From Tetracentron sinense (lineage: Eukaryota; Streptophyta; Magnoliopsida; Trochodendrales; Trochodendraceae), in contig CM026567.1 in assembly GCA_015143295.1 (NCBI GenBank), positions 16,014,416-16,078,415 of the forward strand: a stretch of DNA of 64,000 bases, read 5' to 3'. The notes below the pieces were generated by a model, which was not told the DNA's origin, ran no database searches, and was given only the letters and a program-made list of their open reading frames with translations. A program made the translations under genes and the position numbers. Shown piece by piece: positions 13,720 through 64,000 of this stretch. How positions within the stretch are numbered: position 1 is the first letter of the stretch; each line of letters starts with the position of its first letter.

Positions 13720-13870
13720 ATGGATGCTAGTTGCGACGGGATATGAACGGCAATTAGGCATTCACATTCCGCATGGATGCTAGTTGCGACAGGATATGAA
13801 CGGCAACTAGGCATACCCATCTGCATATAGGGTACTAGTTGCGACGGACTATGAATGGCAACTAGGCATG
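13720..13870. repeat. CTAGTTGC hairpin array, 3' LTR copy
   Basis: Three units, matching 8405-8550. Confidence 0.78.
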
Positions 13871-41912: not shown

Positions 41913-42686
41913 TGTAGAACCCCAGAACTTTTTGTATATGCCTTGGAATGTGTGTCAAAGCATGATGCCTTGCAATCTCCAAATTTCATGAAAATTTGAA
42001 ACTTTGAAAATTGTTTCAAGAATGCAATAATTAATTAAATAAATTATTTAATTATGTCTATAAGCCTTGAAAGAGTCTTAGTCATGCTTAGAAGAGGTCA
42101 AAAGGAAAGTAGGATGAGTCCAAGTAGTAGGAATGGGTGAAAAATGGACTTAGTGTCAAAACCTGTAGAGAACCGATCGCTCGGTCCATTTTAGCGATCG
42201 ATCGGTCCACAACCGATCGATTGGTAACTATCGACTGTTGTACTTTTTTGTATGGGGAAAAATTCCAGAGAGCATGTTTTTGATCGATCGCTCGGTCAAG
42301 AAAACCGGTCACTCGGTAGGCGACCGATCAATCGGTATTAACCACCAATCGATCGGTATATTGCATTTTGCAGAATTTTATTAAGGGCTTTTTCGTCTTT
42401 TGGGCGTTACACCCTTGCCTATTAAGGCTTGCTCGAGTCTTGGGCGTCTCATTCACCACACTTAGAGTATTTGAGAGAAAGGGAGAGAGGAGAAAGGGGA
42501 TTTTACCCTATGGCATCCTCTTGAGCAAATCAAGGGTTTTGAGAAACCACAATCATCCTCAAGCTTTGGATTCTTCAAATCCAACTCCAAGCAAGTGAGG
42601 GACACGTTCTCCAAACTAAGGCAGTGACTCTACGCCCGTTTTGGAGGGTTTCCCTCGTCTTTTCAAGGTCAGTACCATATGCTACC
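41913..42686 (+). repeat. 5' LTR of F, first segment
   Basis: Starts TGTAGAACCCC. It ends where G inserted, at the CTACC duplication 42682-42686. Confidence 0.92.
42171..42362. promoter_or_regulatory. CCGATCGATCGG palindrome cluster in U3 of F
   Basis: Eight or more variants of ACCGATCGNTCGGT and CGATCGATCGG in two groups (42171-42237 and 42280-42362). A weak TATA-like CCTATTAAGG lies about 55 bases downstream. The 3' LTR copy is at 63118-63310. Confidence 0.55.
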
Positions 42687-43114
42687 TGTAAACACCCCAA
42701 TTTTGCACCCCCTAGTCTCTTTGTACACCTCTAAAAACCCTTAAAAAAACCCTCTTTCCATGTGCTTCGATTTCCAAAAAATGTCCCTCAGGTAAAAAAT
42801 GACCAAAATGCCCCAAGGGTGAAAAATAACCAAAATACCCCTGAAAAAGTGCTAAAAAGTTATCATTTTGTCAAAAATGATTTTATAAAATTTTTGATAA
42901 CTTTTGGCTATTTTTGGACTTAAATCGGATTTAAACGGTAAAAAATGACTGAAATACCCTTGGAGTGTAAAATGACTAAAATGCCCATAAAATGGATTTT
43001 ATCAATTCAATTTTGACTATTTTCGGGCTAAAAAAGGGCTAAAATTGAAAAACAGCGAATCGAGGCGTGACACGTGGCAAATAAAAAATAAGAAAATGTT
43101 TTTTGACCCCTTAA

Positions 43115-43225
43115 ATAGGGGCGCTACTTCAAGTAGTGCCCCTAGAAGGGCCTGTTCTCGTTAGGCATGTCGGCGGTGTTATTTTTTAAACCAGGCTAGG
43201 GGCGCTACTTCAAGTAGCGCCCCCC
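43115..43225. promoter_or_regulatory. Near-perfect palindromes upstream of TATA in LTR G
   Basis: Two copies of an inverted repeat with arms GGGGCGCTACTT and AAGTAGCGCCCC around one base (first copy with one mismatch), 70-80 bp apart. A third decayed copy lies near 43292. In the 3' LTR a third copy is clearer at about 52655-52685, while the first is deleted in part. Confidence 0.65.
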
Positions 43226-43317
43226 CAGTTTGGTCTGTTTTGCCGCCTAACTATTCACCACTGCCTACTGTTTCGGGTTTTTATCCAAAAGGGACGCTAC
43301 TTGTGTTTTTTGCTTCC

Positions 43318-43325
43318 TATAAATG
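43318..43325 (+). promoter_or_regulatory. TATA box of LTR G
   Basis: TATAAATG followed by C-rich DNA. The 3' LTR has the canonical TATAAATA at 52700-52707. Confidence 0.6.
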
Positions 43326-43554
43326 CCCCACCCCATTCCTTCACAATCCATTCCATTTTCACTTGCTCTCTTCTATCTCCTCTTTCAAAACCTCTCTTTA
43401 GCGTTGGCGATCCCGGGAATTCGATTTCGAAGAATCATTCTCGGGAGCACTTATTTTAGAGACCCTTTTGGGTTTCTCGGAAGGTAAAATATCGCCAAAC
43501 TCTGAAGTTTGCTTTGTCTTTTATTAGTTTTATTATTTGTAAATACTTAGATTG

Positions 43555-43810
43555 CTTGCCCTGTCGAACCCCTACCCGGTTTTACTTAAACCTATCCTAC
43601 CCTGTCGAACCCCTGCCCGGTTTTATTTAAACATATCTTACCCTGTCGAACCCCTGCCCGGTTTTACTTAAACCTAGCTTGCCCTGTCGAACCCCTGCCC
43701 GGTTTTACTTAAACCTATCCTACCCTGTCGAACCCCTACCCGGTTTTACTTAAACCTATCCTACCTTGTCGAACCCCTATCCGGTTTACTCAAACATATC
43801 CTACCCTATC
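43555..43810. repeat. 41-bp tandem array in LTR G
   Basis: CTGTCGAACCCCTGCCCGG units at 43561, 43602, 43643, 43684, 43725, 43766 and 43806, that is, 41-bp steps, followed by more diverged copies up to about 43970. The 3' LTR counterpart is 52950-53215. Confidence 0.92.
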
Positions 43811-44603
43811 GAACCTCTGCCCGAACTTCGGTTCAAACTTAGCTTACCCAGTCGAACCTCTGTCCAAACCACGATTCAAACCCTGGTTCAAACCCCACTT
43901 ACCTTAGCCGAACCTCTGTCCAATGCTCGATTCAAACCTTGGTTCAAACCCTACCCACCTAATTGAACCTCTAGTTCAAACCCTAACCCAATGCTCCTTG
44001 ACATGAGCTAAAACTGTCCACATGCTCCCCGGCAAGAGCATAAAAGGCCCAAACACTCCTGAATAGGGGCCCAAACCATTCAAAAACCTCCTAACAACCA
44101 AAGACAAATCGCAACTTATCAAACACCCACAATCCAAGCAAAACAAATCAAACCATCAACTACCCATCTGGAACTACGTGTGGCTTGATTCCACTGACTG
44201 TGGATAAGTAGGCAACCCTGATCGGGTTCAGCTCACCTAGGATAGAGCCCCTATCCTGTCCCTACTCATTTTAACTTGTACATTACTGTTCATATAACAT
44301 CTGTCAGCATATATATGAAATACAAGCTTCTCTTATGGTTTTTCCTACTTTAATTCAGACTTAAGGAGTAGGTAACCATCTCCGGATGAGAGTTTAGCGG
44401 TGCCTAACACCTTCCCCTAACTCAAACGAATCCTTATCTTGAACTCTATTTTCATACCAAAGCCTTATCCAACCTTTTAAGAGGCCCTATTTTCCCTCAC
44501 AATCTAAATAGGTGGCGACTTTCTCTTTTCAACATTTTTAGCACTATTCCTCATCGGGTTTGATCCTGATCGGGAGTGGGGTTAAAATCCTGGGTCTACA
44601 GCT

Positions 44604-44621
44604 TGGTGACTCTGCTGGGGA
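44604..44621 (+). other. Primer binding site of element G
   Basis: TGGTGACTCTGCTGGGGA, three bases inside the LTR. It resembles the TGGCGACTCCACTGGGGA site matching tRNA-Arg in Ogre/Tat elements, with three differences. Confidence 0.65.
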
Positions 44622-45852
44622 CTCTGGTTTCGCAGACCAGTATTCGAGCCAAAACCTAAGTCTGAACTGAACAAGGAAAACCACATCAGAAACTTTTACT
44701 TTCATCGATAAGCTGTTAATTTTGTACATATTATTACTTTACTATCATTCATCGAATCTCGGATATTTGTTTGCCAACTTAACAACATGCCTAGGATTCT
44801 ATTTTTATTCATTGCTTGATTTTGATTGATGCATATACATTTATATTCATTGCATACCAGAATAAGAATCCTTTCACCTATCTAGATTAGATTCAGTAAG
44901 CTTACAATCAAGGGATGGTTATCCCTGATGTTGGAGCCAAAAGATCTGTGGAAAGTACTAGTTGTAGACCGAGGGATGGTTATCTCCGGTAAACGCGACT
45001 GATCTTTCCTGTTGCACCAATCGTCCATTTTCAGGTATGTTCTATACCGGAGAGTCGCATATACGGTCAAGTGCTCATCAACCTTTTAGACAAAAACCTT
45101 ACATATACCAGCATAAGCATATAGACTATAAGTCTTTGTTTGGGCATAAACCAAGAACGCTCATCAGGAGGGACTACCTTATCCCTATTCTGTTATTGGT
45201 TTAAGCTACTCCTGCATCATTTGTTCAGGTATAGGGACAATCTTATCCCTATAATAAACTATTTTTGGAGCTTGTGTGAGCCTTGATTGCTAGATAGGTC
45301 TAACCCTACTCTTTTTTAAGTCAACAAGATGTTGTGAGGGTTAAAACCCTGGACTCTAAATGAATCACATGGTTAACCCGTTGATTCATTTTGATCTTAA
45401 CCCAATGAGCTCTGGTTCCCTACAACCCAGATAAGTGAAATGGATCTCTATCCACTCACCCCATTGGGTCACACATGCTGAGTTGACGCATCTTTTTTTG
45501 AGTATACTTGCTCAATTCATTCATTCAATTCATCAAAAGATTCAAGTCAATTCAAAAACTTCATTCAATCATTTTGCTCATCATCATATTGTTTAAATCA
45601 TATATTAGTCTTAGGACTTTCCGCATCCATCATTTTGTGCATACTTATATTCATAACCAGACAAGGGGCAACGTGTCAAAACATCATCAATTAGATCATA
45701 TGTGTGTTGCATCACTACTTTCATCATTGTCTTAATTCAGTCTTTATTTAGCATCTCGACCGTCACCTGACCCATCTGTACATACCTCTTATTACCACCC
45801 AGTTTATAGCACCTTGAGCAAAAGCGACACTAAGCTATCTGCCCTCTTCAAG
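44622..45852 (+). other. Leader of element G
   Basis: About 1.2 kb without a supported gene, AT-rich in its first third. AAGGGATGGTTATC recurs at 44910 and 44971 with GTTGCAC/TCGG context, suggesting a degenerate duplication. Confidence 0.5.
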
Positions 45853-47623
45853 ATGACTCCAGTAAACACGAGATTAACTGATCGAGAACAACAAGTTGTC
45901 GAAGGTGTGGAAACCGACCCTGACAGCCCAGTATCACCTCAATATGTACTGCAACAAATCCCTGATTTAGAAGCGAGGGTATTTGAAACTGAACAAGGCA
46001 TCGTAGAGCTGAAAAGCATCATGCATGATATCTTGAATGCCGTGAATAGGAAGCAACCATCCTCCTCTTCTATCCTAATCGCCGAACCATTCGCCTTAAA
46101 TCAATCAAATCCACCATCTCACAACCCACCACCTTCAAATCCACTCTCACAACCCATCACCTCCAAATCCACCATTTCACAAACCACCACCTCGAAATCC
46201 ACCATCTCATAACCCACCACCTCGAAATCCACCATCTCACAACCCATCACCTTCAAATCCACCCTCTCACCATCCACCACCTCCAAATCCACCATCTCAC
46301 AACCCATCACCTCCAAATCCACCATCTCACAACCCGTCACCTTCAAACCGACCATCTCACAATCCATCACCATTGAACCGACCATCCTTCAACATCCTGC
46401 CACTACACACTGGCCAGTATGAGGAAGAGGAGGCAAGGATTGCCCAGAATATCGAGCAGCCAGGCATATCAACTAACTCAGCCCATACTCCAGACATCTA
46501 CAAGGACAGGATTTAGAGGTTAGAACAATTGGTGAAGAAGACCCAAGGGTCCTACAATTTAGCATCAACTGACTTCTGAGATATGTGTCTGCATTTGGGG
46601 ATTCAATTGCCTCAAGACTTCAAAATGCCTGAATTTGAGAAGTATAACGGAAAAGGATGTCTGGAGACACACCTAAAAGTTTACTACGGAGAGTTGTTCT
46701 AGCTAGAGCACGGGGACAAGCTGCTGGTGTAGCTATTTCAGAGAAGTTTGAAGGGGCAAGCCCTACAGTGGTTCACCAAGGTTGACCCAGCTAAGGTCCA
46801 CACATGGGAAGACCTCTGTGAAGCATTTGTTGCTCAATACTCCTACAACATTGACTTGGTCCCACAGAGAGCAGATCTAGAGAGAATGACTCAAAGAGAG
46901 AATGAATCCTTTATCGAATATTCTATTCGATGGAGGGAAAATATTGGAAAGATGAACACTCCTCTGCCCGAGGATGAGTTGGTGACAACATTCCTCCGCA
47001 CACTCAAGCATCCTTTCAAGACTCTACTAGCAACCCAACCTATTTCCAACTTCAGTACTATGGCCAAATGTGGGGCCAGGATTGAGGCTACAATAGGAGA
47101 TGTGCGAGCAGTTGACATATTCTCAGGATCTAAGGGGATGTCATCCTCTAGTCGTCCTCAACCACCGCGAAAAGATACATGAAGAAGAGAGGATGAGGTG
47201 CAAATGGTCACAACAATGCCCATTCATATTCTCCATTTAACCTAGTAACCCCGACAACCCGAGCAGACTCAACAACAGCTTCCCTCGTAGCAGATGACAT
47301 TTGAACAGAAAAAGAGAAGATTCTTCTCACCCATGCCATATACCATGATGCAACTCCTCCCTTATCTACTAGATAAGAAATTGGTCACGCTGAGAGAACC
47401 CAAGCCGCCACTAGTCACGCTGCCAAGGTCATACAGGACTGGCCAGCATTGTGGGTATCATCAAGCCCCGGGGCATACCACAAACATGTGTTTTGATTTA
47501 AAGCATACAATCCAAGACATGCTTGAAACAGGAAAGATTCAGTTTGAACCAGGGAACACCGACATCAACCAGGTCCCTCTCCCTAATCATACAACAGCAG
47601 GAAACCGGGGCGCACCAGCTTGA
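45853..47623 (+). pseudogene. Tat-type gag of element G
   Basis: Likely ATG at 45853 (MTPVNTRLTDREQQ). The N-terminal helical region is followed by a proline-rich decapeptide repeat (46105-46390) that is broken by a 28-bp unit and by TAA 46210-46212, a CAA-to-TAA change. The capsid core then runs FEKYNGKGCLETHLKVYY (about 46630), LKGQALQWFTKV, WEDLCEAFVAQYSYN and MTQRENESFIEYSIRWREN to about 47150, with two or three stops. After a further stop at 47180 the C-terminal part has the zinc-binding-like HCGYHQAPGHTTNMCFDLKH (about 47450-47510) and ends near 47623. Family wording matches Ogre/Tat Gag. Inactive; no pol follows. Confidence 0.83.
46105..46390 (+). repeat. 30-bp repeat encoding a proline-rich decapeptide
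   Basis: Nine units, one shortened to 28 bp, encoding variants of PPSHNPPPSN in the original gag frame. The complementary strand also stays open, which gives a false minus-strand ORF. Confidence 0.85.
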
Positions 47624-49560
47624 GCCACTCTATAGCTGACTTTGAGCAGTCTCACCAGTTTTTTTTGTCTTTTTGGTTTATTCCATAATTTCTCTTTTGT
47701 AAATGGCCATGATGGCCCAAATCGAAGTCTTCCTAGTCAGTTAGCATATTGGCTAGTGGCCACCTATCTTTATCGTCCGTAATTGAGTCTGTACATCCTT
47801 TCATATTCTAATGAAATTCTCCACTTTTGTTAAAATCTATCTTGCTTATTACTCCGAGATGCCTATTTTTTTTAACTGAACTAGATTCTAAGCTTAGAAA
47901 TGGCAATTGCATGATCATTGGATGAGTAATATAAAAACTCATGACCCTCTTATGAACTAGAAAGGTATTCTGCTCCCCAAAGATTTCAAGGCGAGTTACC
48001 AATCCATTAGAAAACGAGAAGCAAACGAGCGACGAAGACCTCCCCGAGCTATCAAGCATTAAACACATTTGAACGAGGATAATGTAATGACCACACATGC
48101 ACTTGACCAATCAAAGAAAGGATAGGAGGCCATCCTTGGTTAACCCTTAAAATATCATTCTTACCCATGCAATAACATATGCTAGTTAGCCCGTTGAGCC
48201 TAATAGCCTTTCTTTCTAAACCCATACACTGGAACACCCTATGAATGAAAAATCAACAGAGCAGAATTCAACCAATCAAAAGTGAAGCTTATTTTGAACT
48301 ACAACATGACCTGATTCCACTGATCGTGGATACGTAGGCAACCTAAAACAGGTTCGGTCACATTATGGCAAATCTTCATCAATACCAAACAACTATCTCT
48401 AAATAAAGCACAAAAATCAAACAAAAAAAAAGAAGAGCAAAGAAAAAAAAAGAGCAAAAATGGCAAATCTCCAAAATGATCAAGGGAAGCCAACTGGTTT
48501 TGTCTCTGCGTGCAGCAACAAACAAACATTTTAGGGTGTCCTACCCCACAAGAAAATTTTGAGCCTCAACCTTTTCTACCCCTACTACGTTTCGTCCTAG
48601 TAACTAAGCCCTCTTTGATCTTTGAAAGGTCTTGAGCATCAGTGGTCAAAAGCATTAATCTCTACTATTTTACCAGGTAATGACAGGAGAAGACAGATCA
48701 GCTTATCAGAAATCGCAGGCCTAGTGAAAACCAAAAATGACATTAAGGCGCAAAAATTATGCGAGCCCAGCCCTTACATTGTTGTCAGGGGCAAAAAAGG
48801 GAACAAATTAATCAATTACGCAGGCATGAGTGAAAACCGGAAACAGATTCATTGCGCAAAAATTATGCAACCCCAAGACTTGGTCATTCCAAGGACAAAA
48901 AAGAGATAAAGATAAATTTCTGATTTCACGGGCTTAGTATGGAATTATCAATCTTGCTAGTGTGCAAAAATAACGTGAACCCGGTCCTAGTGAAACCTGT
49001 TAAGGTCCAGGGGCAAAAAATGGAAAATTGTAAAGTGCGAGCTTTCATATCAAGCGCCGCCAGCAACAATCAGCTAATGCAGTCAAGCACTATCTTATGC
49101 ATTAGGTATCTGGCGAGGACATCCAAGAGCAGATTTACCTATCTATCTCAGAAGCAATCAACCCAGACTTATTCAATTCCTTTCTAAGGCAAATGAATCC
49201 TAGCTAGGCTTCCCATCAACAGGCAATATTGGACATCTTTCAAAATACTTATGTCAGTCTGTCAAGTCATTCTGTCAATCTATCACCAAGACATCTGTTT
49301 GTTATGTCAGTTTAGTCAGTCAGAGTTGTGTCCTCACGCAAGTCAGCTCAAACTTGGCTAATCCTTTCGGTGGTGCAATCGATTCTCCTGAACTTGAGAC
49401 CGGTTCAAGTAGATTATCTTGCAAGAATATTTCAGTCGGACAAATCCAGGCATCACCTCAATGTAGTATTGATGCATCAGGCAAAGGGCAGATATCAGAT
49501 AGAGGCTCAGGGTCGTGCTCCACTCTCTCACTCCTCATACCCTATCATTCATTTGCTTGC
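47624..49560 (+). other. Internal non-coding DNA of element G, first part
   Basis: No pol. A copy of the LTR block GATTCCACTG...TACGTAGGCAACC lies at about 48311-48345. Three degenerate units of about 100 bp with CAAAAATTATGCGAGCCC and GGGGCAAAAAAGG text lie at about 48690-49030. Nothing else recognised. Confidence 0.5.
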
Positions 49561-49880
49561 TTATGGGTAAGCCACGTGGCTATCCCCTTTCATGCACTTA
49601 CATTTTGATTGCTCATAGGCTAGCCATGTGACTATCTCCATTTATACATATATCGCATTCATTTGTTTGCTTTGCATTCATTCTTAGTGAAGGCGGCTGT
49701 AGAACCAATCCTCGCTAACCTTACATTTCACTTTTTCATGCGTTAGCCATGTGGCTTTCCCTATTCATACATCTTGCTTGTAAAATGGAACAACCGCGTG
49801 GCTGTCTCTATTCATCATACACTTCGCTTGTTGATACACCTTACTCGTGGACTAGCCGTGTGGCTATCTCCACTTATACA
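49560..49880. repeat. AGCCACGTGGCT palindrome repeats in G
   Basis: Five variants of TAGCCACGTGGCTATC near 49571, 49622, 49745, 49790 and 49853, spaced 45-125 bp. The best copy contains a G-box (CACGTG). Confidence 0.65.
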
Positions 49881-49944
49881 TCTGCTTGCTTACTTGTGCT
49901 GAAGTGATCGTACGATCCCTTCAAATCTGACTTCATTCATCTTG

Positions 49945-50290
49945 CTAGCATAGTACCCGGTGGGGCAACCGCGAGGTTGTCAACACTATAGCATAGTACC
50001 CGGTGAGGCAACAGCGCAGTTGTATGCACCATAGCATAGTACCCAGCGGGGTAACAGTGCGTTTTCTGCACCATAGCATAGTACCCGATGGGACAACCGC
50101 GCATTATCTACACCATAACATAGTACCCAGTGGGACAACCATGCGGTTGTTTGCACCATAGCATAGTATCCAGTGGGGTAATCGTGCGGTTGTCAGCACC
50201 ACAGCATAGTACCCGGTGGGGCAACCGTGCGGTTGTCAGCACCATGGCATAGTACCCGGTGGGGCAACCGCGTGGTTGTCGGCACCATGG
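49945..50290. repeat. 43-bp tandem array in G, eight copies
   Basis: TAGTACCCGGTGGGGCAACC units at 49951, 49994, 50037, 50079, 50121, 50164, 50207 and 50250 (42-43 bp steps). Several contain the palindrome CAACCGCGCGGTTG or close variants. Confidence 0.92.
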
Positions 50291-50790
50291 CAGAACGGTT
50301 GTCTGATCAACCTTCAATTGCGACCTCTCGTGAAGCTGGTTGTGTAACCAACCTTCAGTCATTTGCTTCTTACCCATTTTTTAAAGGAGTAATGGAATGG
50401 TTGTCTGATCGACCTTCAGTTGCGGCCTCTCGTAAAGCTGGTTATGTAACCAACCTTCACTCATTTGCATCTTACCCATTTTTTAAAGGAGTAACGGAAC
50501 AGTTGTCTGATCGACCTTCAGTTACGGCCTCTCGTGAAGCTGGTTGTGTAACCAACCTTCACTCATTTGTATCTTACCCATTTTTTGAAGGGGTAGCTGA
50601 ACGGTTGTCTGATCGACTTTCAGTTGCGGCCTCTCATGAAGCTGGTTGTGTAACCAACCTTCACTCATTTGCATCTTACCTATTTTTTGAAGGAGTAGCT
50701 GAACAATTGTCTGATCGACTTTCAGTTGTGGCCTCTCGTGAAGTTGGTTGTGTAACCAACCTTTACTCATTTGCATCTTTCACCACATGT
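50290..50790. repeat. 102-bp tandem array in G, five copies
   Basis: TGCGGCCTCTCGTGAAGC units at 50319, 50421, 50523, 50625 and 50727, exactly 102 bp apart. 102 is 34 codons, so a 204-codon frame on the plus strand and others on the minus strand stay open. I treat them as artefacts. Confidence 0.93.
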
Positions 50791-50799
50791 TCACATTTC

Positions 50800-51720
50800 A
50801 CCGCACTGCACTGCAATACTTGCTCACTCTTAAAGGAGTAACTGACACGGTTGTTTGATCGACCATCAGTTGCGGCCTCCTGTGAAACAAGTCTTGCACA
50901 CTTCATACACAGTACTGCAATACTTGCTCACTCTTAAAGGAGTAACTGACACAGTTATCTGATCGACCATCAGTTGCGGCCTCCTGTGAAACAAGTCTTG
51001 CACACTTCATGCACAGCACTGCAATACTTGCTCACTCTTAGAGGAGTAACTGATATGGTTGTCTGATCGACCATCAGTTGCGGCCTCCTGTGAAACAAGT
51101 CTTGCACACTTCATACACAGCACTGCAATACTTGCTCACTCTTAGAGCAGTAACTGACATGGTTGTCTGATCGACCATCAGTTGTGGCCTCCTATGAAAC
51201 AAGTCTTGCACACTTCATACACTGCACTGTAATACTTGCTCACTCTTGAAGGAGTAACTGACACACTTGTCTGATCGACCATCAGTTGCGGCCTCCTGTG
51301 AAACAAGTCTTGCACACTTCATACACTGCACTACAATACTTGCTCACTCTTAAAGGAGTAACTAACACGGTTGTCTGATCGACCATCAATTACGGCCTCC
51401 TATGAAGCAAGTCTTGCACACTCCATACACTACACTGTAATGCTTCCTCACTCTTAAAGGAGTAACTGACACGGTTGTCTGATCGACCATCAGTTGCGGC
51501 CTCTTGTGAAACAAGTGTTGCACTCTCCACACACATCAATGTATTACTTGCTCACTCTTAAAGGAGTGACTAACACGGTTGTTTGATCGACCATCAGTCG
51601 CGACCTCTTGTGAAACAAGTCTTGCACACTTCATACACTGCACTGTAATACTTGCTCACTCTTAAAGGAGTAACTGACACGGTTGTCTAATCGACCATCA
51701 ATTGCGGCCTCTTGTGAAGC
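50800..51720. repeat. 104-bp tandem array in G, nine copies
   Basis: TGCGGCCTCCTGTGAAAC units at 50871, 50975, 51079, 51183, 51287, 51391, 51495, 51599 and 51703, exactly 104 bp apart. They are related to the 102-bp unit (shared TGTCTGATCGACC...TCAGTTGCGGCCTC). Arms AACTGA and TCAGTT could pair in each unit. Confidence 0.93.
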
Positions 51721-52032
51721 CAGTTTTGCAACAATCGTCATTCACTTGCATCCCACTCACTTGCATCATCCACCCCGTTATTTGGTCGTGTGATCGATTA
51801 GCAGGCAGCTTCATACACCATAACACCCTCTATCCCCAGCAAGTACCGACTTGGCATGAGCACATCCTACCTCTGTTACCCTTCAGTCATCCAGTCCCTG
51901 ACAAGCAGTCTAAGTAGAGTTTATCTTTTCCTCTATCTTTTCCCAAGTTTTCCACACACACACGTGCAAAATTGAAGCGTTATCAGCCTTTGTCGTTCAC
52001 GTGCCTGCACCCTCCGGTAAAGCGGGGTAACT
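51720..52032 (+). other. End of internal region of G with polypurine tract
   Basis: No gene. GGTAAAGCGGGGTAA at 52016-52030 is the probable polypurine tract, directly before the 3' LTR. Confidence 0.6.
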
Positions 52033-53992
52033 ATAAACACCCCAATTTTGCACCCCCTAGTCTCTTTGTACACCTCTAAAAACCCTTTAAAAAAACCTTC
52101 TTTCCACGTGCTTCGATTTCTGAAAAACACCCCTCAGGTAAAAAATGACCAAAATGCCCCTAGGATGAAAATGACCAAAATACCCCTGAAAAAGTGTTAA
52201 AAATTTATCATTTTGTCTAAAATGATTTTATAAAATTTTTGATAAATTTTGGCTATTTTTGGACTTAAATCGGACTTAAAACGGTAGAAAAGAATAGAAA
52301 TGCCCCTGGAGTGTAAAATGACTAAAATGCCCCTAAAAAGTGCTAAAAATTTCATAGTTTATCTAAAATATTTCCTGGATTTTATCAGTTCAATTTTGAC
52401 TATTTTCAGGCTAAAAGGGTTAAAATTAAAAAAGGGCAAATCAGGGCGCGACACGTGGCAAATAAAAAATAAAAAAAATGTTTTTTAGCCCCTTAAATAG
52501 GGGTGCTACTTAGAAGGGCCTGTGCTCGTTAGGCATGTCGGTGGTGTTATTTTTAAAACCCGGCTAGGGGCACTACTTCAAGTAGCGCCCCCCCAGTTTG
52601 GTTTGTTTTGCCGCCTAACTATTCACCACCGCTTACTATTTCGGGTTTTTATCCAAAAGGGGAGCTACTCCAAGTAGCACCCCCCTGTTTTTTGCTTCCT
52701 ATAAATACCCCACCCCATTCCTTCACAATCCATTCCATTTTCACTTGCTCTCTTCTCTCTCCTCTTTCAAAACCTCTCTTTAGCGTTGGCGATCCCATGA
52801 ATTCGATTTCGAAGAATCATTCTCGGGGGCACTTATTTGAGAGACCCTTTTGGGTTTCCTGGAAGGTAAAATATCACTAAACTCTGACGTTTGCTTTGTC
52901 TTTTATTAGTTTTAATTATTTTATTGTTTGTAAATACTTAGACTGCTTGCCCTGTCGAACTCCTACCCGGTTTTACTTAAACCTATCCTACCCTGTCGAA
53001 CCCCTGCCCAGTTTTATTTAAATATATCTTACCTTGTCGAACCCCTACCCGGTTTTACTTAAACCTATCTTGCCCTGTCGAACCCCTGCCCGGTTTTACT
53101 TAAACCAATCCTACCCTGTCGAACCCCTGCCCGATTTTACTGAAACTTATCCTACCCTGTTGAACCCCTGCCCGGCTTTACTCAAACATAGCCTACCCTG
53201 TCGAACCTCTACCCAAACTTCAGTTCAAACTTACCTTACCCATTCGAACCTCTGTCTGAACCTCGATTCAAACCTTGGTTCAAAGCCCACTTACCTTAGC
53301 CGAACCTCTGTCCAAAGCTCGATTCATACCTTGCTTCAAACCCTACCCACTTAATCGAACCTCTCGTTCAAACCCTAACCCAATGCTGCTTGACATGAGC
53401 TAAAACTGTCCACATGCTCCCCGGCAAGAGCATAAAAGGGCCAAACACTCCGGAACAGGAGCCCAAACCATTCAAAAACACCCTAACAACCAAAGACAAA
53501 TCTCAGCCTATCAAACACCCACAATCCAAGCAAAACAAATCAAACCATCAACTACCCATCTGGAACTACGTGTGGCTTGATTCCACTGACTGTGGATATG
53601 TAGGCAACCCTGATCGGGTTCAGCTCACCTAGGATAGAGCCCCTATCCTGTCCCTGCTCATTTTAACTTGTACATTACTGTTCATATAACATCTATCAGC
53701 ATATATATGAATTACAAGCTTCTCTTATGGTTTTCCCCACTTTAATTCAGACTTAGGGAGTAGGTAGCCATCTTCGGATGAGAGTTTAGGGGTGCCTAAC
53801 AACTTCCCCTAACTCAAACGAATCCTTACCTTGAACTCTATTTTCAGACCAAAGCCTTATCCAATCTCTTAAGGGATCCTATTTTCCCTCACAATCTAAA
53901 TCGGTTGTGACTCTCTCTTTTCAATATTTTTATCACTATTCCTCCTCGGGTTCAATCCTGATCGGGAGTGGGGTTAAAATTCCGGGTCTACA
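52033..53992 (+). repeat. 3' LTR of element G
   Basis: Starts TATAAACACC (the TG has become TA) and ends GGGTCTACA. The TATA box is at 52700-52707 and the 41-bp array at 52950-53215. Confidence 0.92.
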
Positions 53993-54589
53993 CTACCCTC
54001 CTAGTTCATATCCTTCTTTCTTTTCTTCATTTTTATAATTCTCCTCTACTATCTAAGCATGTAAATGCTATGGGATGAATGAATGGAGGATGATGGGCGA
54101 TGGATGCCGTGTGGATGTGTGATGATGAATGAAATGGGAAGGGCATTATATCAATAATAAATACATATGTATGTTGTGAACATAAACCCATCTAGAAAAG
54201 CATAGTATAGGCTTTAACAAATAATGTACACACCACATGTTTGATGAAATTCCAAGGTAAAGAAAATGAATTGTAAATCAAGAAATGCATGCTTAAAGGC
54301 GTATGGAATTGCTAGGGATTATGATAGTGTGATTAATTGCTTCCCATAAATGACATGAATATTTACTTGTTTAAATTTATGATGTTCTATGTATTGTTGA
54401 AATCCCAAATGTCATATTTAATTCGAAGTGAAAGCATGTGCACGATTTCACGAGCATGGCATGCATGACAAGGTTTACCGGCGTTTTGAAGAATAAGGTT
54501 TTAGAGGTAGGACCTATCTTACGATATGCTTTGTCTCGCTTTTGACAAGAATAAGAACAAGCATTACACATGAGGGAGTTTACACTTCC

Positions 54590-54730
54590 CTCCCATATCA
54601 TTGAAAGAGGGGTCTCCGCTCGCTCACAAGCACATATCATTGAAAGAAGGGTCTCCCTTCCTTCTCAAGTGCATATCATTGAAAGAAGGGTCTCCCTTCC
54701 CTCACAAGTGCATCTCACAAGCGTATCTCA
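54590..54730. repeat. GAAGGG/CCCTTC hairpin array in LTR F
   Basis: Three units of 36-39 bp (TATCATTGAAAGAAGGGTCT followed by CCCTTCC). The arms GAAGGG and CCCTTC flank three bases in the two best copies. Confidence 0.82.
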
Positions 54731-55052
54731 CAAGTTACATGAGCATGTTTAAATCCCAAGCAAGCACGCATGACATGACACGCATAACATGACACGCATG
54801 ACAGACAAGCAAGACAGACATGACAAGTTTTTCAAGTATGAAAAGAGTATTTTAATTCAAGTCAAGTGCACGATGATTTCAAGAGTGTTATTGGCTTTTA
54901 TATGATGCAAGCATGAATATAAACTGTTTTACTTTCCTGTTATTATATGAATTGCTTCCCGCTTTATATATCGTTATTGTTATCCTGTGACTATTGGTTA
55001 GCATTTGGTACACGCTGAGTATTCCATGCTCAGTCGTACGTTTATATTGGTA

Positions 55053-55163
55053 GGTACTGAGGGAACTACCGATCCTTTTGACATCTGTGATCCTGGCCCA
55101 TGGGTGGAGGAGGAGTATGTTGAGGAACCGATGGAGGAACCTCCAGTAGAGGGTTACTACTAG
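55053..55163 (+). CDS. LTR micro-ORF block, LTR F (open, no ATG)
   Basis: Open to TAG 55161-55163 with PGPWVEEEYVE intact and EEPPVEGYY at the end. The codon matching the ATG of element 1 is ATA. Against element 1 it has no indels and about seven silent third-base changes, concentrated in the core. Confidence 0.33.
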   Translation, partial: GTEGTTDPFDICDPGPWVEEEYVEEPMEEPPVEGYY

Positions 55164-55467
55164 GTGGTAGATTCTGAGTGATTGTGGGTGAGCTTGAGAG
55201 AGTTATACTCATGTATTTTTGGCAGGGCATGTCCGCACTTTCTTTTGTTTTCCCCTTTTGTACAAAACTTGGATCATGTATATATTTACTTAGAGGTTTG
55301 GTTAGTCTTCCACTGTGCTATGTTAGTTAATGCTTTCATTATTATGTCCTCTTTGTATATGCTCCTGGTATTTTGTAGGATGGTTTGTCAAGCAAGTCAT
55401 GTAAGCCATGACATGTCGTCCAAGATTCACTTTAACTCCTAGGGTGGGTTGTGGGTCGCGACAGAGG

Positions 55468-55479
55468 TGGTATCAGAGC
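55468..55479 (+). other. Primer binding site of element F
   Basis: TGGTATCAGAGC, exact initiator-Met-type site, four bases after the LTR. Confidence 0.92.
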
Positions 55480-55964
55480 TTAGGCTTTAGGTCTTTAGGG
55501 TCACTTAGAAGCTTGGCAGGAGCATATGTCGGGAAGCAAGTTAGGAAGGAAGTAAGTTGGAAGCGAGTTATGTTCCAAGTGCAAGACTAAACTTTAGCCT
55601 TAGTCTAAATGGTTGTTTCAACCAAGTATGGGTTTTAGAAACTGTAGCACCCCAAATTGTTTCAGCATGTATTAAAGTTTTAAAGTCATTTTCTTGAATT
55701 GAAGGTTGGATTTCCGAAGTCGAATCTAGTGGAAATCCGAGTTTCTAAATCCCATTTGCGGATCAGGCAACTTTAAGGGCAATTTGGTCCATGGATAAAG
55801 TAGAAATTGAAGATTCTAAAATATTAGGATGTTCCTTTTCGAATGAAGAATCCAACGCAAGTTGAATCGTTAAAATCCGACGAATGAGTCAAAAGTTATG
55901 ACCGAAACACGAAAGAAGGAAAACTTGGAAATTTTCTGCAAGTTAAGAACGATGGTACAGACCC

Positions 55965-56135
55965 TACGAATGATCGTAGGTGAGCTACGATCGATCGTAG
56001 AAATTTACGATCGATCATAGAATCTCAGGAATGGACAAAAATCTCAGTAACGTTTACGATCGATCGTGGAAACTTACGACCGATCGTAGAATATTTACGA
56101 TCGATCGAAGATATACTACGACCGATCTTAGATCA
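55965..56135. promoter_or_regulatory. TACGATCGATCGTA palindrome cluster of LTR H
   Basis: Seven variants of TACGATCGATCGTAG/GACCGATCGTAG, ending about 50 bases upstream of the TATA box. Confidence 0.55.
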
Positions 56136-56183
56136 CGAACCCAAAAATTTTATTCGGGATTTTTAGGGTTTCTCCCCTTTGCC

Positions 56184-56191
56184 TATAAATA
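56184..56191 (+). promoter_or_regulatory. TATA box of LTR H
   Basis: TATAAATA in a GCCTATAAATAGGG context. Confidence 0.65.
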
Positions 56192-57034
56192 GGGACTTAC
56201 ATTTGGGGGTTTTGGTTTACCCTAAACCTAAAGAGAGCCTAAGAGAGATTAGAGAAGAAGGAGAGAGGAGAGATTGAGGGTTTGTCAAGAGGGTTGAGAT
56301 TGAAGAAGAAGGAGATCAAGATCAAGGGTAATTTTCTCCAAATCAAGCGAGGGGGTTTCTCCAAGCTCGATAGCGCCTCCACACACGTTTTTGGAGGGTT
56401 TTCCTCATCTATTCAAGGTCGGTACTTTATGCTACCCTCTTAGTCATGGTTTCCTCTTTTCTTTTCTTATTCTTTGTTTTCCCTAAACTATAACTATGCT
56501 ATGAATTGGGATGCATGGATGGAGATGGGTGTTGGGCGATGGATGCCATGTGAATGTGTTGTGATGAATGGAATGAGAAGGGTATTGTAATAATAATAAA
56601 CACACATGTATGTTGTGAAGATAAACTCACCTAGAAAAGCATGGTCTAGGCTTTAACAAATAATGTACACACCACATGTTTGATGAAATGCCAAGGTGAA
56701 GAAAATGAGTTGTAAATCGAGAAATGCGTTTAAAGCGTATGAAATTGATAGGGTTTATGATAGTGTGATTAATTCTTTCTTTAAATGGAATAAATAATTA
56801 CTTGTTTAAATTAATGATATTCTATGTGTTGTTGAAATCTCAAATGTCATATTTAATTCCAAGTGAAAGTATGTACACGATTCCACGAGCACGGCATGCA
56901 TGACATGGTTTACCGGCCTTTTCGAGAATAAGGTTTAGAGGTGAGACATATCTTACGATATGTTTTACCTCGCTTTTGACAAAAGGACAAGGAGTATCGC
57001 ATAAGAGGGAGTTTACACTTCCCTCCCTTCCATG

Positions 57035-57165
57035 AGGGGTCTCCCTCACTCACAAGTGCATATCATTGAAAGAAGGGTCTCCCTTCCCTCTCAAGTGCAT
57101 GTCTTTGAAAGAATGGTCTCCTTTCCCTCCCAAGTGCGTCTCACAAGCGCATCTCACAAGTTACA
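57035..57165. repeat. GAAGGG hairpin array in LTR H
   Basis: Three units like those of LTR F. The middle one has perfect arms. Confidence 0.75.
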
Positions 57166-57474
57166 TGAGCATGTTGAATTTCAAGCAAGCACGCACGATA
57201 CGCATGACATAACACACTCAACAAGATCAAGCAAGATAGACCTGACAAATTTTTTAAGCACAAAAAGGGTATTTTGAGTCAAGTTAAATGCACGATAATT
57301 TCAAGAGTTTGAACGGTTTTTCTGTGATGCAAGCATGAATATAAACTGTTTTACTTTCTTTTTATGATATGAATTGCTTCCTGCTTTATATATCGTTACT
57401 GTTATGCTGTGACTGTTGGTTAGCATTTGGTACACGCTGAGTATTCCATGCTCAGCCGTAAGTTTATATCGGCA

Positions 57475-57586
57475 GGTACTGAGGGAGCTGCTGCTCCATT
57501 TGATATCTATGCTCCTGGCCCCTTGGGTGGAGGAGGAGTATATTAAGGAACCTACGGAGGAGCCTCATGTAGACAAGTATTACTAG
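57475..57586 (+). other. LTR micro-ORF block, LTR H (one-base insertion)
   Basis: Same block and stop position, but an extra base before the Trp codon shifts the frame. The ATG site is ATA. Confidence 0.4.
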
Positions 57587-57898
57587 GTGGTAGTTTCTGA
57601 GTGATCCGTGGGTGAGCGTGAGAGAGTATGTCCATGTATTTTGGTGGGCCTGTCCACACCTTCTTTTGTTGATTCCTTTTGTACAAAACTTGGATCATGT
57701 ATATATATATATATACTTAGAGGGTTGGTTAGTCTTCCGATGTGCTGTGTTAAGTTTATGCCTCCGTTATCATTGTCCTTTATTGTATATGCTCCGTGTA
57801 TTTTACAGGATGGTTTGTCAATCAATTCATGTAAGTTATGATAAGTCGTCCAAGATTCACTCTAACTCCTAGGGTGGCTTTTGGGTCGTGACAGAAAC

Positions 57899-58058
57899 GC
57901 TCGAACACTAAGTCTATTATGTATACACTGATGGTTATGATGCGATGTATATTAGTACTATACAACTAATACTACTTGAATCATTGTGAAATGGAATTGT
58001 ACTAAATTGTGGTTCAAAGTTAAACTCATGTGGTGTTATTATTCTCAGGACATTATTC
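57899..58058 (+). other. Leader of F after solo LTR H
   Basis: It joins 55480-55637. It ends ATTCTCAGGACATTATTC before the gag ATG, a splice-acceptor-like sequence also present in element 1. Confidence 0.5.
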
Positions 58059-59303
58059 ATGAGGCGGGGCACACGGGGTCGCGGACCACACACCAAAGCT
58101 TCCTCTTCTTCATGGTATGAGGATGAGCAGCCGGACCTCTCTCAGGTCTTAGGCTCTATTGCTGAGACACTCGCCATACTGGCGGCTCGGCAGACTATAC
58201 CATCATCGGCGGCACCTGCTCTACTGCCTGTAGCTCCAATACATCGTACAGCTGGGGTTGAGGCATTCTGGAGATTGAGGCCTCCATCCTTCCATGGAAG
58301 TGTGAACCCTCTTGCTGCAGAGGCATGGATCCTCCAATTGGAGAAGATCTTTGTAGTCCTCTCACCCACAGAGGAAGATAGAGTGGCATGGCCAGTTTTC
58401 ATGCTAGAGGGTGAGGCACACCATTGGTGGTTGTCCGCATTGAGGACTCGAGATTTGACCATGCAAGGTCAACCCTGGACTTAGGAGGAGTTCAAGGATA
58501 CTTTCTATAAGAAGTACTTCCCGGTTGGAGTACGGGAAAAGAAAGAGAGAGAATTCATCAACCTTGAACAAGGTTCGATGTCGGTGGCTGAATATGAGGC
58601 CAAGTTCTCGGAGCTATCACACTTCGTGACTCATATGATTGCCACTGAGCAATGAAGGCGAGGAGGTTTGAGTAAGGGCTCAAGGACGTTATTATGGAGA
58701 AGGTATCGGCTTTCAGGCACGCTACTTATCCGGAAGTAGTGGACAAGGCCTTACTGATCGAGGCCAATTCAAAGGCTGTATCCAAGAAGAGAGATTTGGT
58801 AAGAGGCCAACCTAGTAGTTCAGCACCTCTCAAGAGGTGGGCTCGGACCGGCCCTTATTAGTACACATGGCCAGCACCACCGATGAGACCATCTTATGCG
58901 CCTCCAGTTCCATGGCCGTACATGCCTCAGGCACCACGACCTCAGGCTCTTCCAGCTCCATGGCTAGTTGCACCTCAGGCGGTGAGATACGCTCCACCTC
59001 CGGCCCCTCCAACCTACACACATGAGGTCTGCACGTCTTGCGGCCGAAGGCATCCGACAGGAGATTGTCGAAGGGCATCGGGTGGATGTTTTCACTATGG
59101 TCGCCAGGGCCATGTGATGAGGGAATGCCCTAGTCGTCATTTGCTAGGCCAGTCTCAGGGGATTAGGCCCCCAGCACGCCCAGCAGGATAATACCAAGTG
59201 TCCTCCCAGCCTACCCGGTCTACACCTCCGCCTCGCCAGGCTAACCGGGGGCGAGTATTCGCCTTGACAGAGGGTGATGCACTTGTATTGGATGTAGTGC
59301 AAG
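58059..59303 (+). pseudogene. Gag of Tekay element F
   Basis: ATG 58059. Basic N-terminus (MRRGTRGRG), QPDLSQVLGSIAETLAILA, then the Retrotrans_gag capsid core with AEAWILQLEKIF and EFKDTFYKKYFP (58320-58630). A Pro/Ala-rich linker leads to two zinc knuckles: CTSCGRRHPTGDC (about 59030-59068) and CFHYGRQGHVMREC (59087-59128). In the second knuckle the second Cys is Tyr (TAT 59096-59098), while element 1 keeps Cys. Lesions: TAG 58482 (Trp to stop), a one-base shift near 58655, stops near 58860 and at 59189. The last codons RVFALTEGDA...VVQ lead up to the proposed intron. Confidence 0.87.
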
Positions 59304-59444
59304 GTACGTGTTTAAAGTTATTCATTCATTCGCAATAATCTTGTTATGCCTTATTCTCTGTGTACGTATATGGCGTGTTATATATCTATATATCTATACA
59401 TACGCTATTGATGCATGGATTGACTTAGCTAGTTAAAATTTCAG
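59304..59444 (+). other. Candidate spliceosomal intron between gag and protease of F
   Basis: 141 bp, donor AAG/GTACGT, acceptor AAAATTTCAG/GA, AT-rich with a T-rich end and TTGAC/CTTAG as possible branch points. Removal joins the gag frame to the protease frame exactly (phase 1, a Gly codon at the junction). Retention puts stops after Gag (TAA about 30 bases in). Confidence 0.6.
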
Positions 59445-59880
59445 GAACCTTATTAGACAACGAAAGTTTGGCTAGAGTGTTGATCGACACCAGGTCTACC
59501 CATTCATTTGTCTCACCGAGTTTTTCCCAAGGCTTTTCTATGGAGCCTAGTCAATTAGAACCGGAGTTATTCATTTTGACTCCTCTCGGCAAGACGGTTG
59601 TAGCAGATAGCATTTTCAGAGGCAGTACAGTTCAAGTAGGTAGCCATAAATTAGCAGCTGATCTTATCATCCTTGGATTCCAGGACTTCGATGTTACTTT
59701 GGGAATGGATTGGTTAGCAGCGCGTCATGGGCATGTGGCTTGTTTTGAAAAGATGGTACTCTTCAAGCCGGTGGAAGGGAAGCCATTCCATTTTCAGGGG
59801 TTGAGAAGTAAAGATATCGCCCGCTTTGCTGCGTTAAGCCTAGCGAACCCTGAGGCAAAGGACTCTTTGACTATTCTGGT
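59445..59880 (+). pseudogene. Protease of element F
   Basis: Retroviral aspartic protease (RVP_2-like). The active-site triplet reads Asp-Thr-Arg (59486-59494) instead of Asp-Thr/Ser-Gly, a GGG-to-AGG type change, and is followed by STHSFVS. The flap/second-half ILGFQDFDVTLGMDWL lies at about 59670-59715. The frame is open through this domain, but the Gly loss should inactivate it. Confidence 0.85.
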
Positions 59881-60640
59881 CGTGAGTGAATTCCTAGATT
59901 TATTTCCAAAGGAGTTTCCAGGGTTACCTCCAGACAGAGAGATTGAGTTTGTGATAGAGCTTACACTAGGCATGGCTCCTATCTTCCGGGCTCCATATGG
60001 AATGGCCCCGATTGAACTCAAGGAGTTGAAGACACAGTTGGAGGAGATGCAAGGTCTTGGTTTCATTTGACTAAGTGCCTCACTGTGGGGTGCTCCGATT
60101 TTATTTGTTAAGAAGAAGGATGACTCGATGCATATGTGCATCGATTACCGGTAGTTGAACAAGGTCACTATAAAGAATAGGTATTTATTACCTAGGATTG
60201 ATGACTTGTTCGATCAGTTAAAGGGAGCGAGATTTTTCTCTAAGATTGATCTCCGGTCGGGTTACTACCAGTTGAAGATTAAGGCTAAAGATGTTCCCAA
60301 AACTACTTTTAGGACTCGGTATGGGCATTGCAAGTTCTTGGTGATGCCTTTTGGTCTCACGAATGCACTGGCAGCTTTTATGAATCTGATGAACCGGGTG
60401 TTCCGGCCATATCTGGATCGATGTGTGATCGTGTTTGTCGATGACATCCTAATATATTTCTAGACATGGGAAGATCACGTACGAGACCTTTGCCTTGCTT
60501 TGGAAATGCTGAGAGAGCACAAGTTGTATGCCAAACTGAACAAGTGTGAGTTTTGGTTGGAAGAAGTGGCATTCTTAGGCCACGTTGTATTTGCGGAAGA
60601 CATCTCGGTGGATCCGAAAAAAATAGAGGCAGTCATGAGT
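59881..60640 (+). pseudogene. Reverse transcriptase of element F
   Basis: Chromovirus RT: FPGLPPDREIEFVIEL, [44 protein letters not shown]. The catalytic FVDD is intact at about 60436-60447. Stops lie at 60068 (CGA to TGA), 60152 (CAG to TAG), 60461 and about 60641 (TGG to TGA). The frame is the same throughout. Confidence 0.9.
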
Positions 60641-61380
60641 TGAGCGAGGCCCAAGAATGTCACAGAGATACACAGCTTTCTTGGGTTGGCAGGCTATTAC
60701 AGGAGATTTGTAGAGGGTTTCTCCAGCCTTGCAGCACCGCTCATTTACCTGACCAGGAAGAATGCCAAGTTTGTATGGAGCGATAAGTGCGAGATCAGTA
60801 TCACGGAACTGAAGAAGTGGCTTACGACGGCCCCCATCCTTACGGTGCCATCCGGACGTGGTGGGTATGAGGTGTACAGTGATGCCTCACACGTTGGACT
60901 TGGGTGCGTCCTCATGCAGCACAAGAAGGTCATTGCCTATGCATCAAGGCAATTAAATGAGCATGAAAAGAATTACCCCACGCACGACTTAGAGCTTGCT
61001 ACGGTCGTGTTTGCACTCAAGATTTGGCATCATTACCTTTACGGGGAAGAGTTTTATGTGTTCACGGACCATAAGAGCCTCAAGTACCTCTTTTCCCAAA
61101 AGGAGCTAAATTTACGACAACAGCATTGGATAAAATTTTTGAAAGACTAGGAATGCACCATCCAATACCACCCGGGCAAAGCAAACGTAGTAGCTGATGC
61201 TTTGAGTAGGAGACCTTCAGGTCTGTTGGTTCACATGTTGGTGCGGGAATGGAAACTATTGGAAGATTTGGCTAATCTGGACATCAGTATGAATAATTCC
61301 GTCTGTAGTCCTGTTTTGGCAAATATCACGGTTCGACCGTCCATTAGATTAGATCAAAGAGTATTAAGCCACGGATGCTA
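60641..61380 (+). pseudogene. RNase H of element F
   Basis: [17 protein letters not shown], then RNase H with [10 protein letters not shown] (Asp), [10 protein letters not shown] (Glu region), TDHKSLKY (Asp) and the ending HPGKANVVADALSR. A stop at 61148-61150 precedes the last Asp. It degrades the RNA strand during cDNA synthesis. Confidence 0.88.
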
Positions 61381-62560
61381 ATTTGTTGGCTTTTCAGGAC
61401 AAGGAAGTTGCCAAGGGTAGTGAAGAATTTTCTCTCACTAGCCGTGGTGCTATTACATTCAGTGGAAGGTTGTGTGTTCCGACTAATGCAGATCTTCAGA
61501 GAGAAATTATGGATGGAGCTCACCGTTTGAAGTACACAGTGCATCCTGGGGATACAAAGATGTACTGGAACCTCAAGGGACACTTTTGGTGGCGGAACAT
61601 AAAGAGGGATGTTGCAGAGTATGTATCCCGGTGCTTGGTGTGCCAACAAGTGAAGGCAGAGCACCTGAAACAGTTGGGTCTGTTACAGCTCTCCCTATTC
61701 CCGAGTGGAAATGGGAGCACATCTCCATGGACTTCATTGTTGGCTTGCCAAAAAGGGTAAGAAACTCGGATGCAATATGGGTTGTGGTGGACCGTTTGAC
61801 AAAGTCCGCGCATTTCTTACCCTACCAGACTAGATTCAATTTTAGTCAGTTGGTTGCACTGTATATCAAGGAAGTGATACGGTTACACGGGGTGCCAATC
61901 AGTATTGTGTCAAATCGGGATCCAAGATTCATGTACAGGTTCTGGAAGAGTTTTCAGGATGCTATGGGTTCTCAACCTGATTTCAGCACCGCCTTTCATC
62001 TACAAACAGATGGACAGACCGAGAGGGTGAACCAAGTCATCGACGCATGCTTCGGGCATGTATGTTAGATTTCAAGGGCAGCTGGGAAGAGCATTTTCCT
62101 TTGGTCAAATTCGCCTATAATAATAGCTACCAGGCAAGCATCCAAATGGTACCATTTGAGGCCTTGTATGGGCGAAGTTGCAGGTCTCCTCTCTACTGGG
62201 ATGAGGTGGGAGAAAGAAAGGTATTGGGTCCTGAGTTGATCGAATAAACTGTAAACAAGGTAAAGATCATCCGAGATCGGTTGAAAGCCGCTCAAGATCA
62301 TCAAAAGAGCTATGCTGACACTCGCCACAGGGACTTGGAATTCCAAGTTGGGGATCGAGTCTTTGTGAAGGTATCTCTTAGTAAATGGATTATGAGAATT
62401 AGCAAAAGAGGCAAGCTTAGTCCTCGATATATCGGCCCCTTTGAGATTATCATGCGAGTTAGTGAAGTTTCTTACCGGGTAGCTCATCCACCTTACATGG
62501 CCACGGTTCACAACATTTTCCATGTGTCTATGCTTTGGAAGTACATTACGGACCATTCTC
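61381..62560 (+). pseudogene. Integrase of element F
   Basis: Zinc finger with HRLKYTVHPGDTKMY and CLVCQQVK (about 61520-61660). Two frame changes follow. The core has HISMDFIVGLP (first Asp, about 61730), IVSNRDPRF, where the second catalytic Asp is Asn (AAT 61913-61915), and TDGQTERVNQ (Glu present). A further shift occurs near 62047. The C-terminal GDRVFVKVSLSK and GKLSPRYIGPFEI follow. Confidence 0.88.
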
Positions 62561-62766
62561 ATGTCATCGAGTTGGAACAGTTGGAGATCCGAGAGGACCT
62601 CACTTTGGTTGAAAAGTCGGTTCATATATTAGATCGGAGAGATCAAGTCCTTCGCAACAAGACTATCCCGTTGGTTCTCGTGCAATGGCAACATCATGCT
62701 CGAGAAGAGGCTACATGGGAGCACGAGGCTGAAGTCAAAGCAAAGTACCCGGAGTTCTTTGAATGA
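62561..62766 (+). pseudogene. C-terminal chromodomain of element F
   Basis: It follows integrase without a break (same frame as 62281 on) and ends at TGA 62764-62766. The segment HILDRRDQVLRNKTIPLVLV and VQWQHHAREEATWE matches the Tekay-type chromodomain, thought to steer integration to heterochromatin. This part of the frame is open. Confidence 0.85.
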
Positions 62767-62855: not shown

Positions 62856-64000
62856 TGTAGAACCCTGGAACTTTTTGTATATGCCTTGGAATGTGTGTTA
62901 AAGCATAATGCCTTGTAATCTCCAAATTTCATGAAATGGGAATTTGAAACTTTGAAAATTGTTTCAAGAATGCTATAATTAATTAAATAAATTATTTAAT
63001 TATGTCTATAAGCCTTGAAAGGGTCCTAGTCATGTTTAGAAGAGGTCAAAAGGAAAGTAGGATGAGTCCAAGTAGTAGGAATAGGTGAAAAATGGACTTA
63101 GTGTTAAAACCTGTAGAGAACCGATCGCTTGGTCCATATTAGCGATTGATTGGTCCACAACTGATCGATCGGTAGCTATCGACTGGTGCACTTTTTTGTA
63201 TGGGAAAAAATTCCAAAGAGCATGTTTTTGACCGATCGCTCAGCCAAGAACACCGGTCGCTCAGCAGGCGACCGATCACTCGGTATTAACCACCGATCGA
63301 TTGGTATATCGCGTTTTACAGATTTTCATTAAAGGCTTTTTCATCTTTTGGGCGTTACACCCTTGCCTATTAAGGCTTGCTTGAGTCTTGGGGGTCTCAT
63401 TCACCACACTAAGAGTATTTGAGAGAAAGGTAGAGAGGAGAAAGAGGATTCTACCCTATGGCATCCTCTTGAGCAAATCAAGGGTTTTGAGAAACCACAA
63501 TCATCCTCAAGATTTGGATTCTTCAAATCAAACTCCAAGCAAGTGAGGGACACGTTTCCAAGCTAGGGCAGTGACTCCACGCACGTTTTGGAGGGTTTCC
63601 CTCGTCTTTTCAAGGTCGGTACCATTAGCTACCCTCCTAAATCATATCCTTCTTTCTTTTCTTCATTTTATAATTCTCCTCTACTATCTAAGTATGTAAA
63701 TGCTATGTGATGAATGAATGGAGGATGATGGGCGATGGATGTCATGTGGATGTGTGATGATGAATGGAATGGGAAGGGCATTATATCAATAATAAATATA
63801 CGTGTATGTTGTGAACATAAACCCATCTAGAAAAGCATGGTATAGGCTTTAATGAATAATGTACACACCACATGTTTGATGAAATGCCAAGGTGAAGAAA
63901 ATGAATTGTAAATCAAGAAATGCATGCTTAAAGGCGTATGGAATTGCTAGGGATTATGATAGTGTGATTAATTGCTTCCCATAAATGACATGAATATTTA
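62856..64000 (+). repeat. 3' LTR of F, cut by window end
   Basis: It matches 41913-42686 plus 53998 onward, uninterrupted, which confirms the G insertion. Palindrome cluster at 63118-63310. About 1.1 kb should lie beyond the window. Confidence 0.92.

Follow-up and report, generated by a model that had tools for sequence, protein, structure and literature searches.

A 141-base segment that begins with GTACGT and ends with TTTCAG lies between the gag and protease frames of a long terminal repeat (LTR) retrotransposon of Tetracentron sinense and is probably a spliceosomal intron, carried at the gag/protease border by a large subfamily of Tekay-type chromoviruses, whose unspliced RNA would yield Gag and whose spliced RNA would yield Gag-Pro-Pol. 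The element lies in, and at its 3' end runs out of, a 64,000-nucleotide stretch (C17:16014416-16078415, hereafter the window) of the 1.161 Gb assembly, which was the genome surveyed. An intron at this position, with alternative splicing as the source of both products, had been proposed from the letters of the window alone (the original prediction). The observation on which that proposal rested was confirmed and its interpretation was partly supported. That the insert is intron-like, and not the accident of one dead copy, is well supported by comparison with related copies, and formation of Gag and Gag-Pol from one RNA by predicted alternative splicing is the natural inference. The Tekay label is putative and rests on the original prediction together with resemblance.

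Borders and composition of the insert

The features at the junction are as follows:

58059..59303, + strand: gag, exon 1, broken in the window copy (related gag pieces in 28 to 30 of 30 loci)
59304..59444, + strand: intron-like segment GTACGT...TTTCAG, 141 bases, GC 0.312 (borders shared by 55 copies and an empty site)
59420..59424, + strand: candidate branch point TTGAC, presumably so from its motif, its A being 21 bases upstream of the intron end
59445..60067, + strand: protease and start of reverse transcriptase (RT), exon 2 (RVP_2 match from profile position 22)

The gag frame is open from 59192 to 59303 and is followed directly by GTACGT; TTTCAG ends at 59444, after which the protease frame begins, and removal of the 141 bases joins the two frames in phase through a split codon (G/GA). 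In these respects the original prediction was exact at the base level. Its statement that Gag is in frame as far as 59303 is true of the last 37 codons only; upstream of these, gag in the window copy is interrupted by stops at 58482, 58859 and 59189, and its frame changes near 58645-58680. Neither the last 37 gag residues alone, in Pfam, nor the C-terminal gag piece, among proteins at an E value of 0.001, gave a match.

Retention of the segment would add the 11-residue tail GTCLKLFIHSQ before a TAA at 59336-59338, an early end that had been foreseen, and the insert of the window copy holds two in-frame stops. The catalytic motif of the protease is DTR at 59486-59494 in this copy, and the earliest in-frame ATG of the protease, at 59540, lies downstream of the catalytic Asp, which leaves the protease without a usable start codon. 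Given the position of this ATG and the stops in the insert, splicing is the simplest route to a translated protease.

The insert is GC-poor (0.312, against a coding-region mean of 0.475 and minimum of 0.355) and T-rich (0.418, against a mean of 0.264 and maximum of 0.355), and 4,283 other overlapping stretches of 141 bases from the coding region included no equally GC-poor and no equally T-rich one. Its borders coincide with the joint position of intronless copies, with a 3-base ambiguity (AGG) only and no longer target repeat. Hallmarks of a spliceosomal intron that show in DNA were found together, namely GT...AG borders, a U-rich and GC-poor interior and an exact empty site in relatives. The contrast in composition is that described for plant introns in the excerpted text of the BARE1 paper (PMC3735527).

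Intron-bearing and intronless copies

A pattern comprising the acceptor end and exon, with up to 3 mismatches, gave 3,085 matches in the genome and 1 with the reversed control; 44 of 55 known intron-bearing copies would fit it. The best 40 of 3,148 candidates obtained with a 540-base query all span the insert, a query that itself includes the insert and hence favours such matches. This bias was avoided by use of the protease exon alone, for which 30 of the best 40 of 3,559 candidates were retrieved; all 30 contained intron sequence, including L056, in which the left exon is gone and 44 intron bases are left. With L056 excluded, and with 14 of the 30 protease-query copies overlapping the 40 from the insert-containing query, 55 distinct aligned copies were obtained.

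Among these, the donor GT was present in 52 (AT, AT and CT in the others) and the acceptor AG in 49 (AA in the remaining 6). Intron length ranged from 45 to 169 bases, 50 copies falling within 134-149, and 32 lengths were not divisible by three (23/8/24 modulo three). Upon readthrough, a stop was encountered within the insert in 55 of 55 copies. Maintenance of GT and AG amid drift of the interior and of length had been predicted and was observed; conservation of these dinucleotides was nevertheless rejected as decisive proof, as numerous other bases of the intron are just as conserved. A TA-rich run in the intron varies in length (L047, L048, L057 and L067), some introns reaching 153 to 169 bases, and in L047 most of the intron is gone, with 45 bases left and GT and AG retained. 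Most retrieved copies are decayed, like the window copy.

A 25-base pattern of the joined junction, with up to 3 mismatches, gave 51 matches in the genome and none in the control, and places the joint at the borders of the predicted intron. One match, at C13:28125383, is an intron-bearing copy and thus false, leaving ∼50 copies. The pattern demands the exact joint and misses inexact losses; copies derived from spliced RNA should be found well, because the exon ends of 52 of the 55 intron-bearing copies would fit the pattern if spliced. In all 20 of the 51 matches that were retrieved, the frame continues over the joint, and the residues preceding the Gly at the joint are VVQ in 18, VMQ in one and VVE in one. 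Related intact copies that lack the 141 bases, or read straight through them in frame, had been named in the original prediction as evidence against an intron. Taken literally, the ∼50 copies are of this kind; they are, however, a small minority beside ∼3,000 carriers and lack the insert exactly at GT and AG (an exactness demanded by the search pattern), so that an intron is favoured rather than weakened.

A tree built on sequence around the junction unites 17 of the 20 intronless copies in one clade (support 91) and nests L100 and L094 among the intron-bearing copies (support 97). The intronless L099 is the outgroup, with 69% identity to the nearest intron-bearing copy, and the intronless state therefore exists also outside the family. 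Trees of longer flanks (1.2 kb on each side, 31 intron-bearing and 5 intronless copies) led to rejection of monophyly of the intron-bearing copies by the approximately unbiased (AU) test on the left flank (AU 0.0003) and on both sides together (AU 0.004); the left flank of the outgroup L099 aligns at only 53%, and L105 is a poor match on the right. The joint-flank value makes it likely that the intron was lost exactly by way of spliced RNA, or that carriers recombined with an intronless lineage. A mosaic history is likely on these trees, in which gain inside the family would have been followed by exact loss through spliced-RNA copying, by recombination with intronless relatives, or by both.

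More distant relatives read straight through the junction. In proteins of other plants that reach upstream, the motif ...RVFA...DVVxG/T....VLIDxG (the slash marking the junction) is unbroken by eye. An automatic pattern fitted 14 of 120 plant proteins, 13 of which have 14 residues when counted from after the Gly to the catalytic Asp, which is the spacing found here once the insert is left out. In the same plant, each of the best 150 of 14,811 RVP_2 candidates begins its match at profile position 2-5, in some cases with stops passed over, whereas the protease exon of the window matches only from position 22. Open frames of at least 1,200 codons were counted by eye in 32 of the 150 rows listed, a list in which contiguous copies are favoured by a profile that itself crosses the junction. 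Six of eight loci retrieved from other families were open and contiguous at the junction, and two contained stops. A single gag-pol frame is present in other families of the plant and in the ∼50 intronless copies, not in the subfamily of the window, and is not strictly defining for the Tekay clade. The closest relative among proteins (P0001, 67%, on a 740-base contig) is uninformative on the junction because it starts inside the protease. No relatives were found among viral contigs, using the protease and RNase H pieces, or in a bacterial/archaeal genome collection and a plasmid collection.

Coding constraint, mechanism and alternatives

Among 30 copies, the gag exon had a diversity of 0.103/0.089/0.179 at codon positions 1/2/3 and the protease exon one of 0.090/0.073/0.150; intron diversity was 0.125. 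Variable columns were then defined by a minor base in at least 8 of 40 copies, the strictest of three thresholds tried. They occurred at 13 of 66 third positions and 6 of 133 others in the protease exon (p 0.0013) and at 12 of 68 third positions and 6 of 135 others in the gag exon (p 0.003). The greater variation of third positions indicates that the protease has been under selection in insert-carrying copies. The intron interior matches third-position variability at the two laxer thresholds (22/102 at six or more), and the stretch preceding the acceptor is less variable than the interior (2/27 at six or more). Changes of C>T plus G>A account for 67% of differences from the commonest base in the gag exon, 57% in the protease exon and 43% in the intron; this excess is decay.

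The following minimal scheme can be proposed. The intron would have been gained within the family. Unspliced RNA would be translated to Gag with a short tail and would also be the form usually packaged and copied, given that the intron is preserved in ∼3,000 copies. Splicing would join both frames to give Gag-Pro-Pol, and partial splicing would set the Gag to Pol ratio. Some copies may have lost the intron exactly, whether spliced RNA was copied or recombination with intronless relatives took place. A fuller history is offered tentatively, as possible: that the intron gained by a chromovirus family became a Gag/Gag-Pol switch and spread to ∼3,000 copies, and that the 1 to 2 percent of copies without it represent spliced RNA that was packaged and copied. 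If this is true, a single genome documents how strictly translated RNA is separated from genomic RNA in a plant element. The number of intron-bearing copies relative to exactly intronless ones may also gauge the frequency of re-entry of spliced RNA into the genome. An intron-bearing element beside close intronless relatives in the same genome constitutes a natural comparison with and without the intron.

Several observations weigh against a regulated intron in this subfamily. At the strictest threshold, the intron interior is less variable (11/102) than third positions, and 42 of 140 neighbouring intron base pairs are as conserved as the GT and 79 of 140 as conserved as the AG. Both flanks of ∼210 bases are open in 9 of 20 intronless copies, against 5 of 40 intron-bearing copies for flanks of ∼200 bases; the more frequent open flanks of the intronless relatives mean that the wider family can do without the intron. 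Monophyly of the intron-bearing copies was not rejected on 400 bases near the junction (AU 0.41) or on the right flank (AU 0.18), and the left and right trees conflict over which intronless copies are nested.

The open flanks of close intronless copies, and the frames of at least 1,200 codons that cross the junction in other families of the plant (the 32 of 150 rows), would also suit a real intron with no regulatory role. All translated RNA would then be spliced, only RNA for packaging would retain the intron, and the excess of Gag would arise otherwise, as in the one-frame intronless relatives; to our knowledge, the source of Gag excess over Pol in one-frame plant Ty3/gypsy elements is largely open. 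Stops upon retention in 55 of 55 copies fit a Gag-only product instead, but this is not decisive, as any unconstrained intron of this length would contain stops. We regard an intron of this passive kind as unlikely.

Decay of the window copy and of most retrieved copies, together with the existence of related gag-only, non-autonomous elements, would be expected if the segment were a low-GC insertion, amplified with a dead or helper-dependent subfamily and never spliced. This explanation is very improbable in view of the exact GT/AG borders, which show the AGG ambiguity only and no longer target repeat, the constraint on coding sequence 3' of the insert in copies that carry it and the existence of exact intronless copies. 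A translational device in the gag-pro spacer (readthrough, frameshift or internal start) has a precedent of sorts in plant elements with separated open reading frames (ORFs), known from the excerpted text of PMC6317226, but is hardly credible here given two in-frame stops in the window copy, 32 of 55 insert lengths that change the frame, a first in-frame ATG beyond the catalytic Asp and relatives from which the spacer is missing.

The surrounding element and known systems

The probable intron lies in an element that is itself interrupted, with the following further parts:

41913..42686, + strand: 5' LTR, part one
42687-53992: nested element splitting the 5' LTR, target repeat CTACC
53993..55463, + strand: 5' LTR, part two, beyond the nested element
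55468..55479, + strand: candidate primer binding site, TGGTATCAGAGC, which we take from its motif to be of tRNA-Met type
55643-57893: solo LTR of a related family, within the leader, target repeat GAAAC
60068..62766, + strand: remaining pol, with RT, RNase H, the C-terminal part of integrase and a chromodomain-like end; several stops and frame breaks
62856..64000, + strand: 3' LTR, extending past the window end (resemblance to the 5' LTR stops at about window coordinate 64566)

The LTR pair shows 69 mismatches over ∼1,150 aligned bases. The pol of the window copy has more than 5 stops in its best frame in addition to frame breaks, and this copy of the element is dead. Pfam domains occur in the order RVP_2, RVT_1, RT_RNaseH and then SH3_Tf2-1, with an integrase-core piece that has no Pfam match. 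The pol end matched Pfam Chromo at an E value of 8.9e-5 (22.8 bits, under the cut-off of 25.1), and PF00385 was found in part of the listed relatives of the pol-end piece. The protease frame runs unbroken into the RT region up to 60067, with no Ogre-like intron between protease and RT.

The nested element has LTR-like ends of ∼1.9 kb that are 89% alike and contains long tandem arrays with units of 102-104, 43 and 41 bases. In a copy at C17:16.32 Mb (L002, L042 and L043), related LTR sequence begins at the same place as the solo LTR, and this copy and that of the window may be a segmental duplication. A related element at 6750-14630 has LTRs at 6750-9313 and 11992-14630 (94% alike) and gag pieces, with no protease or pol; its gag similarity stops close to the gag/protease border, and because it has no protease it is no test of the junction. 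An acceptor-like TTCTCAG or CCTCAG immediately precedes the gag ATG in each of the two elements (58040-58061; 10940-10960), and the leader may hold a second intron.

In the open-licence literature of PubMed Central (PMC), subscription papers being outside its scope, no intron was found described at the gag/protease border of a Tekay-type element. CRR is a chromovirus, and Bianca belongs to the Ty1/copia superfamily. In the excerpts of the papers cited here and below, CRR, of the Ty3/gypsy superfamily, is described as splicing its transcripts, a likeness to the present case, but its splicing removes rt to yield two ORFs and is not at the gag/protease border (PMC3735527). Bianca and Ogre are the elements named as having two ORFs parted by such regions (PMC6317226). 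In Bianca, too, the stretch between the two ORFs is short (on average 172 bp), and splicing is not shown in that text (PMC6317226).

BARE1, with a U-rich intron of 104 nt (PMC3735527), and EVADE (PMC12786077), both Ty1/copia, resemble the present element in that splicing near the gag/protease border parts Gag from Gag-Pol. Their arrangement is the opposite one and belongs to another superfamily, since spliced RNA there gives Gag only and unspliced RNA keeps the single frame. That scheme does not fit here, where removal of the insert would join the frames and retention would end translation after Gag. In its logic the proposed scheme follows Ogre (Ty3/gypsy, Tat lineage). There, two polyprotein frames are parted by an intron that only a portion of the transcripts lose, and those that lose it code for the complete polyprotein (PMC6317226). 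In Ogre, which belongs to another lineage, the intron lies between protease and RT rather than at the gag/protease border, and a tRNA-Arg primer (PMC9289625) stands in place of the tRNA-Met-type site and chromodomain-like end of the Tetracentron element.
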